Made by a program: the position numbers and the translations under genes. Below the pieces are notes generated by a model. The model saw only the letters and a list, made by a program, of their open reading frames with translations. It was not told where the DNA came from and did no database searches. A stretch of 46,890 nucleotides of DNA from a virus: positions 1-46,890 of the IMG/VR virus record IMGVR_UViG_3300032093_000230; one strand, 5' to 3'. Shown here piece by piece: positions 12,834 to 42,663 of this stretch (positions within the stretch are counted from its first letter, which is position 1; every line of letters starts with the position of its first letter).

Positions 12834-12886
12834 GCCTGGGTTGGTGACACATTTCAGGTAGAATGGGGCGCTCTGGTGCCCTTTTC
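12834..12886 (+). ncRNA. Candidate small antisense-type RNA (HNH locus)
   Basis: Inferred RNA from late promoter 1 to the intrinsic terminator. Its bases 12839-12848 (GGTTGGTGAC) are the exact reverse complement of 12902-12911, which lie at the predicted 5' end of the endonuclease mRNA. No open reading frame is visible inside. The ends are predicted from promoter and terminator positions only. Confidence 0.4.
12865..12886 (+). terminator. Intrinsic terminator (HNH locus)
   Basis: Stem GGGCGC (12866-12871), loop TCTG, GTGCCC (12876-12881) with one G-T pair, followed by TTTTCTT. It would end transcription from the oxygenase operon and from late promoter 1. Confidence 0.7.
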
Positions 12887-12889
12887 TTG

Positions 12890-12897
12890 CATAAATA
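12890..12897 (+). promoter_or_regulatory. Late promoter 2 of the HNH locus, CATAAATA
   Basis: It sits 3 nt after the terminator and 4 nt before the right arm of the inverted repeat. A start 5-7 nt downstream puts the arm at the very 5' end of the endonuclease mRNA, which would have a leader of about 20 nt. Confidence 0.7.
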
Positions 12898-12922
12898 GTA
12901 CGTCACCAACCAAAGAGCAGTT

Positions 12923-13714
12923 ATGAACTACCTAAGGACTTACTGTAACCTTATACGAAACGCAGAGAAAAGAGGTTACAACAAAAGAAATGTGAAAATG
13001 TATGTGGAAGGACATCACGTTTTTCCAAGATCTCTTTATGGGCAGACAACAGAAGGGAACAAAAGGATTGTATATTTGACTGCCAGAGAACATTATATTG
13101 CTCACTCTCTATTAGAAAAAGCATTTATCAAAAGGTATGGAGAAAAGCATCCAAAAACAATAAAGATGACTCACGCTTTTTGGAAAATGAATCATCATAA
13201 AAGTGGTGATAAAGAATATTATTGCAACTCACGTCTTTATGAAGGATTAAAAATAAGAGTTGGTAATGCTGTTGGTGATAGGTGTCGTGGTGTGAAATCC
13301 AAAAAAGAACACGTTGATAAGATGCGAAAAACAAAGTTTGTTTATGAATATTTGATTACAGATCCAAATGGTAAAGAATATATTACTCAAAGTTTGAAAA
13401 GTTTTTGTTTAGAACATAACTTACACAACCCTACTATGTGTTATGTTTGTATGGGAAAGAGAAATCATTATAAAGGTTGGACTGCTAAAATAACAAATAC
13501 GATTAGACCAAACTTGATTATGAGCGATGAGCAAAGGGAGTTATGCCGAAAAGCAAGATTGAAAACTTATTATTTCTTATCGCCAGATAATAATATTGTA
13601 AAAGTTGATGATATTGATGAACATTGTAAAGATTTTGGATTGAGTAAAAGACAGATGCAAAGATTATCAAGATTTGAAGTAGATCATCATCGTGGTTGGA
13701 GATTGCCAGTATGA
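12923..13714 (+). CDS. HNH homing endonuclease
   Basis: The protein has 263 residues. The N-terminal HNH core reads 'VEGHHVFPRSLYG' (H31, H32), N46 and 'LTAREHYIAHSLL' (H57, H61), the form common in free-standing phage endonucleases. A basic middle part is followed by two DNA-binding-type repeats: 'SFCLEHNLHNPTMCYVCMGK' with 'HYKGW' near residue 190, and 'CKDFGLSKRQMQRLSRFE' with 'HRGWRL' at the end. Such enzymes nick or cut a target in a relative lacking the gene and drive their own spread. The flanking genes look intact, so it is free-standing and not in an intron. It overlaps the next gene by ATGA. The ribosome site is weak (AGAG) and lies right after the inverted-repeat arm. Confidence 0.85.
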   Translation: MNYLRTYCNLIRNAEKRGYNKRNVKMYVEGHHVFPRSLYGQTTEGNKRIVYLTAREHYIAHSLLEKAFIKRYGEKHPKTIKMTHAFWKMNHHKSGDKEYYCNSRLYEGLKIRVGNAVGDRCRGVKSKKEHVDKMRKTKFVYEYLITDPNGKEYITQSLKSFCLEHNLHNPTMCYVCMGKRNHYKGWTAKITNTIRPNLIMSDEQRELCRKARLKTYYFLSPDNNIVKVDDIDEHCKDFGLSKRQMQRLSRFEVDHHRGWRLPV

Positions 13715-23590: not shown

Positions 23591-24217
23591 ATGTCTAATA
23601 AGAAGTATCATTATACCTATTATTCTTATGAAGAGTGGGGTAGGGGGTATATTGGGTGTAGAAGTTGCAATTGCTTACCGGAACAAGATATAAACTATTT
23701 TGGATCATTTCACGATAAAACATTTAATCCCACTCAAAAAGTAATTATCGAAACGTTTAAAACAAGAAAGGATGCAATTCGTGCAGAAATAAAGTTGCAT
23801 AATTTTTATGATATTGCTCTTAACTCACATTTTGCTAATAGGGCAAAACAAACTTCGACTAAATTTACGAGAGAGGGTGCAGTTACATCTCAAGAAACAA
23901 AAGAAAAAATGAGTAAAGTTAAAAAAGGTAAATTTTTTCTAAATGAAAGTGCAAGAGAGAAGATTAGAAGAGCAAGAGCACTTCAAGTTTTTACAGAAGA
24001 AAGTTCAATAAAAAGAAAACAAACACTTAAAAAACTGGATTTAGTTTGGATGTATGACCCAAAAACAAAAAAGAATCATAGAATAATGAGAATAAAAGTT
24101 CAAGAAAAACTATCTGAAGGACTTGTATTGGGACGTATTTGCAATATTACAGAGGAAACAAGAAAAAAATTAAGTGATGCTGCCAATAAAAGATGGTCTA
24201 AACAAACCAATAAATAA
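23591..24217 (+). CDS. GIY-YIG-like homing endonuclease with NUMOD3-type repeats
   Basis: The protein has 208 residues. The N-terminal 'YHYTYYSYEEWGRGYIGCRS' holds a diverged GIY-YIG core (YIG at 20-22, R24), and E66 in 'DAIRAEIKLH' fits the catalytic Glu. 'YFGSFHDKTF' and 'HFANRAKQTS' are typical of the phage branch of this family. Two NUMOD3-like DNA-binding segments follow: 'TSQETKEKMSKVKKGKF' (about 98-114) and 'ITEETRKKLSDAANKRW' near the end. The C-terminal half is very lysine-rich. The gene is free-standing between intact late units and has a weak ribosome site next to the inverted-repeat arm. Confidence 0.75.
   Translation: MSNKKYHYTYYSYEEWGRGYIGCRSCNCLPEQDINYFGSFHDKTFNPTQKVIIETFKTRKDAIRAEIKLHNFYDIALNSHFANRAKQTSTKFTREGAVTSQETKEKMSKVKKGKFFLNESAREKIRRARALQVFTEESSIKRKQTLKKLDLVWMYDPKTKKNHRIMRIKVQEKLSEGLVLGRICNITEETRKKLSDAANKRWSKQTNK
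24209..24216 (+). promoter_or_regulatory. Late promoter (-10), AATAAATA
   Basis: The element overlaps the endonuclease stop codon, 27 nt before the ATG at 24244. Confidence 0.65.
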
Positions 24218-27645: not shown

Positions 27646-28443
27646 ATGAGTTGTAAAAAGTATTATTTTCTTTCGGGTATGCCGAGAGCAGGAAACACTA
27701 TTTTGTCATGTATTTTAAATCAAAATAAAAAAATAGGTGTATCTGGAAATAGTTTAGTATCAGAAATTCTTTTTAAACTTGATAGTTGGAAAGATACTGA
27801 TGTAGCGTATAAAAATTTTCCAGATGAAAAATCTTATGATTCTGTGATGGAAAGTATAATATCTTCATATTATTCTAAATGGAATGTTGATTATGTTATT
27901 GATAGATCTGCTTGGGGAACTCCTGCTAATTTTTCTTTACTTCAAAAATATTGCCCAAATGAAATAAAAATAGTTTGTCTTGTTAGAAATACTCTTGATA
28001 TTTTTAAATCTTGGGTAGACTGGTCTGATAAAAATCCAAATAACTTTATTAATAGAAATACTAATAATGGAACTGTGGAACAAAAATTTGAATTTATTTT
28101 TAATCCTCATGGGCAGTTGGTTCAGCAGATATTATCCATCAATACACTTAACAAAATAGATCCACAAAATAATATTCATATACTGATTGGCTATGATGAT
28201 TTTGTGAACAATCCTCAAAAAGAAGTGGAAAGAATATATGATTTTTTAAATATCCCGCATTACAGTCATAACTATAAAAAAATAAAACAGTTAAATATTA
28301 ATGGAGTTGAATACTCTGATAATTTTCTTGGTAATAATCTTCACAAAATTGACACAAAGGGTATTCGAAAAAGGAAATATAAAGTAAATGTTTCAGATCA
28401 AATATATCATAGATGTTTAGAATTTGATTTGTTGATTAGGTAG
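27646..28443 (+). CDS. Sulfotransferase family protein
   Basis: The protein has 265 residues. The 5'-phosphosulfate-binding loop is 'SGMPRAGNTILSCILNQN' (about 10-27). The 3'-phosphate-binding segment is probably 'CLVRNTLDIFKSW' (R114, S122). A C-terminal part with 'NPQKEVERIYDFLNIP' is also typical. Such enzymes move sulfate from PAPS to a hydroxyl or amine of a sugar, lipid or protein. Cyanophage copies usually lie among fibre genes, where a surface or fibre sugar is a plausible but unproven target. It is a single-gene unit with its own host-type promoter. Confidence 0.85.
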   Translation: MSCKKYYFLSGMPRAGNTILSCILNQNKKIGVSGNSLVSEILFKLDSWKDTDVAYKNFPDEKSYDSVMESIISSYYSKWNVDYVIDRSAWGTPANFSLLQKYCPNEIKIVCLVRNTLDIFKSWVDWSDKNPNNFINRNTNNGTVEQKFEFIFNPHGQLVQQILSINTLNKIDPQNNIHILIGYDDFVNNPQKEVERIYDFLNIPHYSHNYKKIKQLNINGVEYSDNFLGNNLHKIDTKGIRKRKYKVNVSDQIYHRCLEFDLLIR

Positions 28444-40411: not shown

Positions 40412-41338
40412 ATGTCATTTTCCGACCTTAAAAAGCAATCCAAACTTGGCAATCTTACTGCCAAACTGGTCAAAGAAGTTGAAAAAATGAATAATAACAG
40501 CGGTTCGTCTGACGACCGTGTGTGGAAACTAGATGTAGATAAGAGCGGCAATGGTTATGCCGTGATCCGTTTCCTCCCTGCTCCTAACGGTGAAGACCTG
40601 CCGTTCGTGAAACTCTATTCCCACGCCTTCCAAGGTCCTGGTGGTTGGTATATTGAGAACTCCCTGACTACTCTGGGTCAGAAGGATCCCGTATCGGAAC
40701 TGAACTCCGAACTGTGGAACAACGGTACTGATGCTGGTAAGGAACTTGCCCGTAAGCAGAAGCGTAAACTGACCTATGTTTCCAACATCTATGTGGTAAA
40801 GGATCCTGCTAACCCTGCTAATGAAGGTAAGGTCTTCCTGTTCAAGTATGGTAAGAAGATCTTTGATAAACTCACCGCTGCAATGCAACCTGAGTTTGAA
40901 GATGAGGAAGCAATCGATCCGTTTGACTTCTGGCAAGGTGCTAACTTCAAACTGAAAGCAAAGAACGTTGCTGGTTATCGTAACTACGATTCTTCCGAGT
41001 TTGCACGTCCAGAAGCACTTTTGGATGATGACGAAGCAATGGAAGCAATCTGGAAGAAGCAGTATTCTCTTGCTGAACTCGTCGCTGCTGATCAGTTTAA
41101 ATCTTACGATGAACTGAAAAAGCGTCTTGATTATGTGCTGGGTAACAAAGGCACTCCCCGTTATCAAGATCCTGACGTTGCCGATGAAGAAGAGTATTCC
41201 CGTGGTCCTGTGAAGGATCTTGATGAAGATCTTCGCAGTGAACTCAACAATCTGAAACCTACCACTCGCCGTGCTGCTGTGGAGGAAGATGAGGATGACG
41301 ATGCACTTTCCTACTTCGCCCGCTTGGCAGAAGACTGA
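40412..41338 (+). CDS. gp32: Single-stranded DNA-binding protein gp32
   Basis: The protein has 308 residues (T4: 301). The basic N-terminus 'DLKKQSKLGNLTAKLVKEVE' matches the cooperativity (LAST-type) segment. The OB core includes 'GYAVIRFLPAP' and 'VKLYSHAFQGPGGWYIENSL'. The acidic C-terminal tail ends 'VEEDEDDDALSYFARLAED'. It binds and protects ssDNA in replication, repair and recombination. No cysteine is visible anywhere, so the zinc site of T4 gp32 (one His, three Cys) is absent. The gene is more GC-rich in codon choice than its neighbours, as expected for high expression. Confidence 0.95.
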   Translation: MSFSDLKKQSKLGNLTAKLVKEVEKMNNNSGSSDDRVWKLDVDKSGNGYAVIRFLPAPNGEDLPFVKLYSHAFQGPGGWYIENSLTTLGQKDPVSELNSELWNNGTDAGKELARKQKRKLTYVSNIYVVKDPANPANEGKVFLFKYGKKIFDKLTAAMQPEFEDEEAIDPFDFWQGANFKLKAKNVAGYRNYDSSEFARPEALLDDDEAMEAIWKKQYSLAELVAADQFKSYDELKKRLDYVLGNKGTPRYQDPDVADEEEYSRGPVKDLDEDLRSELNNLKPTTRRAAVEEDEDDDALSYFARLAED

Positions 41339-41352
41339 TTAAGTGCTATAAT
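41324..41352 (+). promoter_or_regulatory. Sigma70 promoter (extended -10) for the Mom-like gene
   Basis: TTGGCA (41324-41329) inside the gp32 coding end, 17-bp spacer, TATAAT (41347-41352) with a TGC extension. Predicted start near 41359 falls within the left stem of the gp32 terminator. Confidence 0.8.
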
Positions 41353-41355
41353 ACT

Positions 41356-41382
41356 GGGGAGGCAAGGGTCTCCCCTTTTTTT
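41356..41382 (+). terminator. Intrinsic terminator after gp32
   Basis: GGGGAG (41356-41361), 8-base loop, CTCCCC (41370-41375), seven T (41376-41382). The T run ends directly at the ATG of the next gene. Confidence 0.9.
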
Positions 41383-42000
41383 ATGAAGTCTGATTTTTAC
41401 ATTGATAGAATTACTAAGCAGCAAGCGGGAGAACTGCTGCTGAAATATCATTATCTGAAAGATATATCTAAGGGATTTAAGTCTGGTTATAACTATGGTC
41501 TTTTCAAGAAAAATGAATTCTCTCCACTAAATATTGGAGGTTTACAGGGAGTCTGCATCTTCACAGGACTTCCAGTTCCAGAAATAGCAAAAGGAGCATT
41601 TGGTCTTGAACGAAACCAACAACAAGGACTCTTTGAACTCTCTCGACTCTGTATCCACCCAGATACACAGTCACAAGAGTACAACATTACTTCTTGGTTC
41701 GTTGCAAAAGCGATTAGACAATTTCGCAAGGATACAAGCGTCTCAGCAATCATTTCTTACGCGGATTCTGATTTTCACGATGGTACAATTTATCGTGCTT
41801 GCAACTTTAAATATTGCGGTCTTACAGACGCAAAAAAAGATTTTTACTTTGCAGACGGCACCAAACATTCAAGAGGTAAAATAAAAGGTGCTGAGGGAGA
41901 ATGGAAAGAACGCTCCCGCAAGCACCGTTATGTTATGATGTTTGATAAAAAGTTAAATCTCTTATGGTCAGACGATACGGTTGTTCTCCGTTCTGATTAG
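41383..42000 (+). CDS. Mom-like DNA modification protein
   Basis: The protein has 205 residues. 'LLLKYHYLKDISKGFKSGYN' (about 18-37), 'FELSRLCIHPD' (84-94), 'ISYADSDFHDGTIYRACNFK' (124-143) with 'YCGLTD', and the late 'RSRKHRYVMMF' correspond in order to phage Mu Mom. Mom belongs to the GNAT fold and converts adenine in phage DNA to a carbamoylmethyl derivative, shielding it from restriction. Here it has its own host-type promoter. The ATG directly follows the gp32 terminator's T run, without a good ribosome site. Its 3' end overlaps the convergent gp53 gene by 33 nt. Family call is strong; the chemistry here is inferred. Confidence 0.75.
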   Translation: MKSDFYIDRITKQQAGELLLKYHYLKDISKGFKSGYNYGLFKKNEFSPLNIGGLQGVCIFTGLPVPEIAKGAFGLERNQQQGLFELSRLCIHPDTQSQEYNITSWFVAKAIRQFRKDTSVSAIISYADSDFHDGTIYRACNFKYCGLTDAKKDFYFADGTKHSRGKIKGAEGEWKERSRKHRYVMMFDKKLNLLWSDDTVVLRSD

Positions 42001-42663
42001 TTTTTTATCAACATATTGAGAACTTTTTCCATAATTCATAATAACTCTCATATCATTCAGGAATTGTTGTAAGTATCCTACTTTCAAAATATAAATTTGT
42101 CTTTTTTCTTCATTTCTAATTGATTCGTATTCATAATTAGATACACCTATAACTGGATTTATTTCACCTGTTGAGTCTGGTGTAAATACTTGATTTTCAT
42201 TTGCACCAATACTTGTATAGGTAGAACCAGCGGAAACTACTATTTTAAAGTTGGAATCAACTTTTTGCCCCCTTTGTAATATTAATCTTCCTTTCTGATC
42301 TCTTACTTCAACAGTCTCATAGTGATGAATATCATTTAAATTTTGGGTAGTATATTTATTTTCTGCATATACATATAGATCACGATTTGAAAGAGGCCAT
42401 TGATCCCGTACATTTATAATTCCTGCTGTAAGAAGAACTACCCAATCATAATCAGCACTACCATAAACTAGTTGAGCAACAGTATCTGGTCTTGCACCTT
42501 CAGGTATTTGAAATTTATCAAACAGAGTTGCCTTATCTTGCAACCAATCTAAAAGTTTGACTCTACGAAATAAATTTTTAATTCTTACATAATCTCGTGA
42601 AGAATTTTTATGTGAAAGAGGTGATGGTATTTCTACGTCTGGTAGTTCTCTAAAATAACTCAT
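41968..42663 (-). CDS. gp53: Baseplate wedge protein gp53
   Basis: The protein has 231 residues (T4: 196). 'IPSPLSHKNSSRDYVRIKNL', 'FRRVKLLDWLQDKATLFDKF' and 'PDTVAQLVYGSADYDWVVLL' with 'NVRDQWPLS' are typical of gp53. It holds wedges together around the hub; the fold is LysM-like in part. It follows gp48 with a 1-nt gap. The last 11 codons are complementary to the end of the Mom-like gene. Confidence 0.85.
   Translation of the reverse strand: MSYFRELPDVEIPSPLSHKNSSRDYVRIKNLFRRVKLLDWLQDKATLFDKFQIPEGARPDTVAQLVYGSADYDWVVLLTAGIINVRDQWPLSNRDLYVYAENKYTTQNLNDIHHYETVEVRDQKGRLILQRGQKVDSNFKIVVSAGSTYTSIGANENQVFTPDSTGEINPVIGVSNYEYESIRNEEKRQIYILKVGYLQQFLNDMRVIMNYGKSSQYVDKKLIRTENNRIV

Follow-up and report, generated by a model that had tools for sequence, protein, structure and literature searches.

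A Mom-Like Gene between gp32 and gp53 of T4-Like Cyanophages and Its Predicted Junctions with the Replication Gene

Introduction

Does a T4-like cyanophage encode a Mom-type enzyme for the hypermodification of adenines, and how could such a gene be expressed from a place directly behind the replication gene gp32? The question is raised by the IMG/VR virus record IMGVR_UViG_3300032093_000230, whose 46,890 analyzed bases are referred to here as the window. At 41383..42000 on the + strand, this window contains a mom-like coding sequence of 205 amino acids (aa) with an ATG start. In the original prediction, made from the letters alone, it was described as a Mom-like gene of a cyanophage, placed next to gp32 and equipped with its own early promoter. 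Based on profile searches, alignments, a structural model and the comparison of related loci, we consider it likely that the gene is an accessory insertion for Mom-type adenine modification and restriction protection, and that its promoter overlaps the gp32 terminator.

A New Subfamily of Mom

The prediction started from a parallel with Mom of phage Mu in the order of three motifs of the open reading frame (ORF), namely E85-LSRL, ISYADSDFHDGTIYRACNF and RSRKHRYV. This order is not due to chance. In a profile search, the window protein matches the Pfam family Mom (PF25680) with 90.1 bits (E=1.9e-25), the curated cut-off being 27.1 bits, and it matches PHROG 1384 'Mom-like' at 1.7e-34. Weaker PHROG matches concern HNH and homing endonuclease families and cover only residues ~73-166, which fits with the fusions of Mom domains to nucleases known elsewhere (PMC7824862). 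An alignment of the window protein with ten phage Moms, Mu included, has 14 invariant columns (H23, Y24, G56, E85, L86, R88, S125, D128, G134, Y137, A139, N141, G146 and H162). Over 121 mom pairs, many of them near saturation of synonymous sites (dS), the median ratio of nonsynonymous to synonymous substitution rates (dN/dS) is about 0.07, which indicates purifying selection. A decaying or chance ORF is ruled out by this ratio and by the conservation. Judged by profile and alignment, the gene is a genuine member of the Mom family; it belongs to a new subfamily in cyanophages. Both the family and its presence in cyanophages were already known, since Mom proteins are annotated in S-SSM7 and DSL-LC03.

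Predicted Fold and Catalytic Serine

The AlphaFold2 model of the window protein, calculated from an alignment of 38 relatives, has a mean predicted local distance difference test (pLDDT) score of 88.2 and a predicted template modeling (pTM) score of 0.84. In the PDB, the model is most similar to Mu Mom: both chains of crystal structure 8bv8 come first, with E=7.6e-11 and 7.1e-10, and an ordinary acetyltransferase follows at E=7.6e-6, a gap of five orders of magnitude. The same structure is the sole PDB match of the 11-member Mom profile (hmmsearch). A closer fit to some other GNAT family, which the original prediction had named as the result that would speak against it, is ruled out, as Mom comes first by profile and by fold.

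The 8bv8 entry is titled 'inactive mutant S124A', and the mutated serine was placed by aligning its sequence to the Mu gene. S124 of Mu aligns with S104 of the window protein, a residue invariant in the 38 relatives. Family membership, the predicted fold and the conserved catalytic serine are thus directly supported. Because fold, invariant residues and S104 are kept, the catalytic apparatus is probably intact and the enzyme may be active.

Proposed Modification and Alternative Substrates

As a Mom-type enzyme with a GNAT fold, the protein would modify adenines of the phage DNA at N6, and only a subset of them, depending on the sequence. The group added would most likely be the carbamoylmethyl group of Mu or a close relative, and the modified DNA would escape host restriction endonucleases. 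We infer DNA as the substrate, the chemical group and the restriction protection alike.

Several observations weigh against this proposal. Identity with Mu Mom is only ~20%, and the template modeling score (TM-score) between the model and Mu Mom is about 0.64, so that the enzyme may deviate from Mu Mom in its cofactor, its product or its target sequence. The observed-to-expected ratio of 6-mer palindromes is 0.84-0.89 in the window and two mom-carrying contigs versus 0.87-0.89 in two mom-less phages; this equal avoidance provides no footprint of relaxed restriction pressure, and the comparison is uninformative. To these points must be added the dS saturation mentioned above and the fact that the mom promoter and transcription start discussed below are sequence-based predictions. 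As a separate observation, certain 6-mer palindromes, GTGCAC above all, are strongly depleted in mom-carrying and mom-less cyanophages alike (window, L369-L388).

The low identity to Mu Mom would also suit a Mom-fold enzyme with another substrate or product, such as one that works on nucleotides, RNA or a protein or that attaches a different acyl group to DNA. GNATs are functionally diverse, many of them appear in the PDB match list of the model, and in Roseobacter phage CRP-212 a related Mom forms a fusion protein with a MazG nucleotide pyrophosphohydrolase, which hints at nucleotide chemistry. However, every residue that is invariant across Mom, including Mu, is kept in the window protein, and Mom is ahead of all other GNATs in the fold and profile searches, which makes a different substrate or product rather unlikely.

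The proposed protein could otherwise belong to a phage restriction–modification pair: Mom would mark the DNA of the phage itself, and a nuclease acting as its partner would cut unmarked DNA of the host or of rivals. Such an arrangement is suggested by Synechococcus phage DSL-LC03, where an annotated type II restriction endonuclease overlaps a Mom-like gene (L094:3412-4582), but that Mom is of a different subfamily. No nuclease is fused or adjacent to the window Mom, whose neighbors are gp32 and gp53, and the gp32-site loci of relatives show the same two neighbors. Although the window is part of a larger genome and partner genes may lie elsewhere, we regard the pair as highly improbable.

An Accessory Gene between gp32 and gp53

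The window represents a T4-like cyanophage of the Synechococcus type, in line with the predicted phage group. The DNA of its gp32 region is nearest to that of Synechococcus phages S-SRM01 and S-SKS1, S-SRM01 being the best relative. The predicted neighborhood also holds: the gene of the single-stranded DNA binding protein gp32 (40412..41338, + strand) lies directly upstream of mom. On the other side, the convergent gene of the baseplate wedge protein gp53 (41968..42663, - strand) overlaps the 3' end of mom with its own 3' end by 33 base pairs (bp; 41968-42000). No Mom was found in the whole genomes of S-SRM01 and S-SKS1, in which gp32 and gp53 adjoin directly. By this comparison, mom is an accessory gene that came to lie between these two genes by insertion; the insertion site is directly supported, as is the purifying selection.

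A first scan of IMG/VR revealed 80 loci with a mom copy of 80-100% identity, and mom sits between gp32 and the convergent gp53 wherever flanks are present. The second scan returned this site again, together with a more diverse set of mom genes (about 59-83%) at other sites, often downstream of an 89-aa gene. A cyanophage-type gp32 was present in three of the five second-site records checked. In the protein tree, the gp32-site moms nest within the second-site moms, and two second-site genes in turn group among the gp32-site moms, from which it follows that the gene probably moved at least two times. The Mom of CRP-212 is an outer relative, and those of S-SSM7 and DSL-LC03 form a separate clade (support 99/98) near the Mom of an Enterococcus phage, so that cyanophages have probably acquired Mom more than once. 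One phage contig (G012, L140) has two Mom matches (65600-66193 and 137108-137704), possibly of two subfamilies. As to a bacterial origin, the single-protein scan of genome contigs gave no relative. A profile scan detected Mom relatives at 57-65% in contigs of gammaproteobacterial and Desulfobacterales metagenome-assembled genomes (L367, L368), possibly viral sequence binned with bacteria.

A Predicted Promoter Overlapping the gp32 Terminator

How mom might be expressed from this place is suggested by its junction with gp32. The predicted mom promoter of the window (41324..41352, + strand; TTGGCA-17-TATAAT) matches the consensus at 11/12 positions and has the additional TG. Its -35 element (TTGGCA, 41324-41329, +) lies within the last gp32 codons and is separated by a spacer of 17 nucleotides (nt) from the extended -10 element (TGcTATAAT, + strand, with the -10 at 41347-41352). 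Three bases further downstream begins the stem of the intrinsic gp32 terminator (41356..41382, + strand), composed of GGGGAGGC-AAGG-GTCTCCCC and a T7 tract which abuts the mom ATG. The predicted transcription start, at ~41359, falls inside the 5' arm of this terminator. No + strand terminator was found after 42000, downstream of mom, in the window, and a search of Rfam with two loci that span the gp32-mom junction matched no family.

According to the proposed mechanism, host-type sigma70 RNA polymerase would transcribe mom from this promoter. The gp32 transcripts would stop at the hairpin, while mom transcripts would begin within its 5' arm, could not rebuild the full stem and would in this way escape the terminator, with a leader of ~24 nt ending in U7-AUG. 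The median folding energy is -14.2 kcal/mol for the full hairpin versus -4.7 kcal/mol for a leader starting at +7.

Close-spaced junctions of the window type that have both elements share this geometry, which is directly supported: the stem begins 0-3 nt past the -10 in 41/41, and the -10 is extended in 40/41. The promoter is present in 36/45 close-spaced junctions with mom versus 5/62 junctions without it, counts that come from related contigs and are therefore not independent, the overlap-type loci having been enriched by a later hairpin-pattern scan. Mom-less relatives can have gp32 terminators without the -10 (e.g., L178, L183, L185). The predicted promoter of its own is therefore upheld for the window, by its sigma70-type consensus and by comparative support; it does not extend to many relatives, which have none and in which mom overlaps the gp32 stop.

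Early genes of T4-like cyanophages are thought to be transcribed from sigma70-type promoters by the host RNA polymerase in its unmodified form (PMC2984593). By analogy, early expression of mom is plausible, in contrast to the timing in Mu; this timing, like the transcription start, is what we infer from the promoter. A similar module (TAGAAT, a G+C-rich hairpin and a T run) occurs in the window at 12859-12923, just upstream of a gene at 12923-13714 that appears HNH-like by eye, so that these phages may use the overlap of promoter and terminator more generally when genes are added.

A Hairpin inside mom in Other Relatives

In other relatives, the GTG start of mom overlaps the gp32 stop codon, or mom follows a hydrophobic mini-ORF of ~22 codons which overlaps the mom start too. 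Neither promoter nor terminator lies between gp32 and mom in these two types. The mini-ORF (like MKYNQICLTLLVVAAYVNLLLK) overlaps the gp32 stop in L028, L079, L203, L205, L241, L243 and L249; it overlaps the mom start where mom is present and occurs without mom as well.

Relatives that are not of the window type (e.g., the overlap-type loci L026, L055 and L060) carry instead a 12-bp hairpin, GAAGCCGCAGAG-TTAC-TTCTGCGGTTTC, within mom codons 14-23. It was found in 24/25 overlapping junctions and in 11/14 spaced ones that lack a terminator upstream, versus 1/44 junctions that have such a terminator; these counts predate the hairpin-directed search and derive from related contigs. In the remaining overlapping case (L165), the hairpin is present too, a C-G pair having become T-A by a compensating change. 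The window-type module and the intragenic hairpin are almost mutually exclusive.

The stability of the hairpin far exceeds that of synonymous recodings, with a mean z of -4.2, compared with -0.3 for window-type genes. Codons 19-22 show zero synonymous variation in 37 sequences, the gene average being 0.37. Among 17 distinct sequences picked from the listed hairpin variants, 96% of cells pair and three pairs are changed on both sides, the covariation score being higher than that of any of the 500 shuffles or of any slid register. Two of these double changes each alter two amino acids (E14D with F22Y, and A16S with R21K). Furthermore, in contigs that have lost mom the hairpin persists between gp32 and gp53. 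At least two different forms of it occur there, one in L231/L294/L315 and the other, with a clean T7 tract behind it, in L199/L257/L286/L355; L359 seems to have a third, on the opposite strand. Since the hairpin is nearly exclusive with the window-type module and is kept after the loss of mom, it is probably the gp32 terminator, written into the coding sequence of mom. The second-site moms of L126 and L135 have it as well, presumably carried along when mom moved.

A near-perfect inverted repeat of nearly constant sequence could also be a DNA operator or a recombination target rather than an RNA terminator, and two further features would agree with this. Where mom is intact, the T tract is broken up (TTTCATTA), and the 5' end of mom appears to have been exchanged repeatedly: in a mom tree built without the first 30 codons, the junction state changes about 11 times, of which well supported branches force only 2, so that repeated exchange is likely but the count is not firm. 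Such a role is nevertheless difficult to reconcile with three stem pairs altered on both sides, including those that change amino acids, with the almost exclusive replacement of the normal gp32 terminator, and with retention after mom loss, in one form with T7 directly behind. We therefore hold an operator or recombination target to be improbable and prefer the terminator. As the T tract is weak in the presence of an intact mom, the hairpin may terminate only part of the transcripts, and the extent of read-through may set the dose of mom, which is a conjecture.

Taken together, the gp32-mom boundary of this cyanophage lineage may be a swappable module, comprising either a mom promoter with its start in the gp32 terminator or a terminator in mom codons 14-23. 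In the latter case, codons for the N-terminus of a DNA-modifying enzyme would also serve gp32 as terminator, and mom would be made by translation-coupled read-through only. Both would stand in for control by Com, the translational activator of Mu-type operons. For this combined proposal, we see the case for and against as evenly balanced.

Implications

The present locus would extend Mom-type adenine hypermodification to a cyanophage lineage that is widely sampled and in which the gene keeps its genomic position, offering many natural variants for testing the chemistry and specificity of Mom. It is also a case of an accessory DNA-modification gene fitted behind a replication gene without upsetting the termination of the latter. 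The proposed terminator inside a coding sequence, which shows frozen synonymous sites, covariation and persistence once mom is lost, is unusual and directly testable. The gp32 junction looks new: it is conserved and has either a predicted promoter inside the terminator or a probable terminator inside mom. Elsewhere in the window, inspection by eye suggested a GIY-YIG-like homing endonuclease gene (23591-24217) and a sulfotransferase-like gene (27646-28443) among the tail fiber genes.

Comparison with Known Systems

The Mom-like proteins of S-SSM7 and DSL-LC03 share the PF25680 family and the cyanophage host group with the window Mom; they belong, however, to another subfamily, nearer to the Enterococcus phage Mom, and are encoded elsewhere in the genome. 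The closest relative among named phage records is the Mom of Roseobacter phage CRP-212 (L084:2998-3927, MZ892988), with ~49% identity, which differs by its in-frame fusion to a C-terminal MazG pyrophosphohydrolase domain. The deposited CRP-212 coding sequence starts inside the Mom domain.

Phage morons are accessory genes that lie between conserved genes, have their own promoter and are absent from near relatives. The window mom resembles them in its own predicted promoter and in separating two genes which are direct neighbors in S-SRM01 and S-SKS1. It differs in that no downstream terminator of its own was found, the upstream terminator belonging to gp32.

With Mu Mom (8bv8, PF25680), the window protein shares the fold, the invariant residues (among them HY, ELxR and S.AD.....GxxYxAxNF) and the serine corresponding to S124, but it is missing the ~30-residue N-terminal extension. 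In the Mu-type operon, whose promoter is also under the control of Dam, the zinc-finger translational activator Com overlaps the start of mom, whereas in the cyanophage relatives only gp32 or the mini-ORF overlaps it. Com (PF10122) was not found in eight partial mom-carrying cyanophage records, the window not being among those scanned, while the Mu control was positive. Finally, mom of Mu is transcribed from a late promoter activated by C (PMC4461284), whereas the window mom has a predicted near-consensus host-type promoter which overlaps the terminator of the preceding gene.
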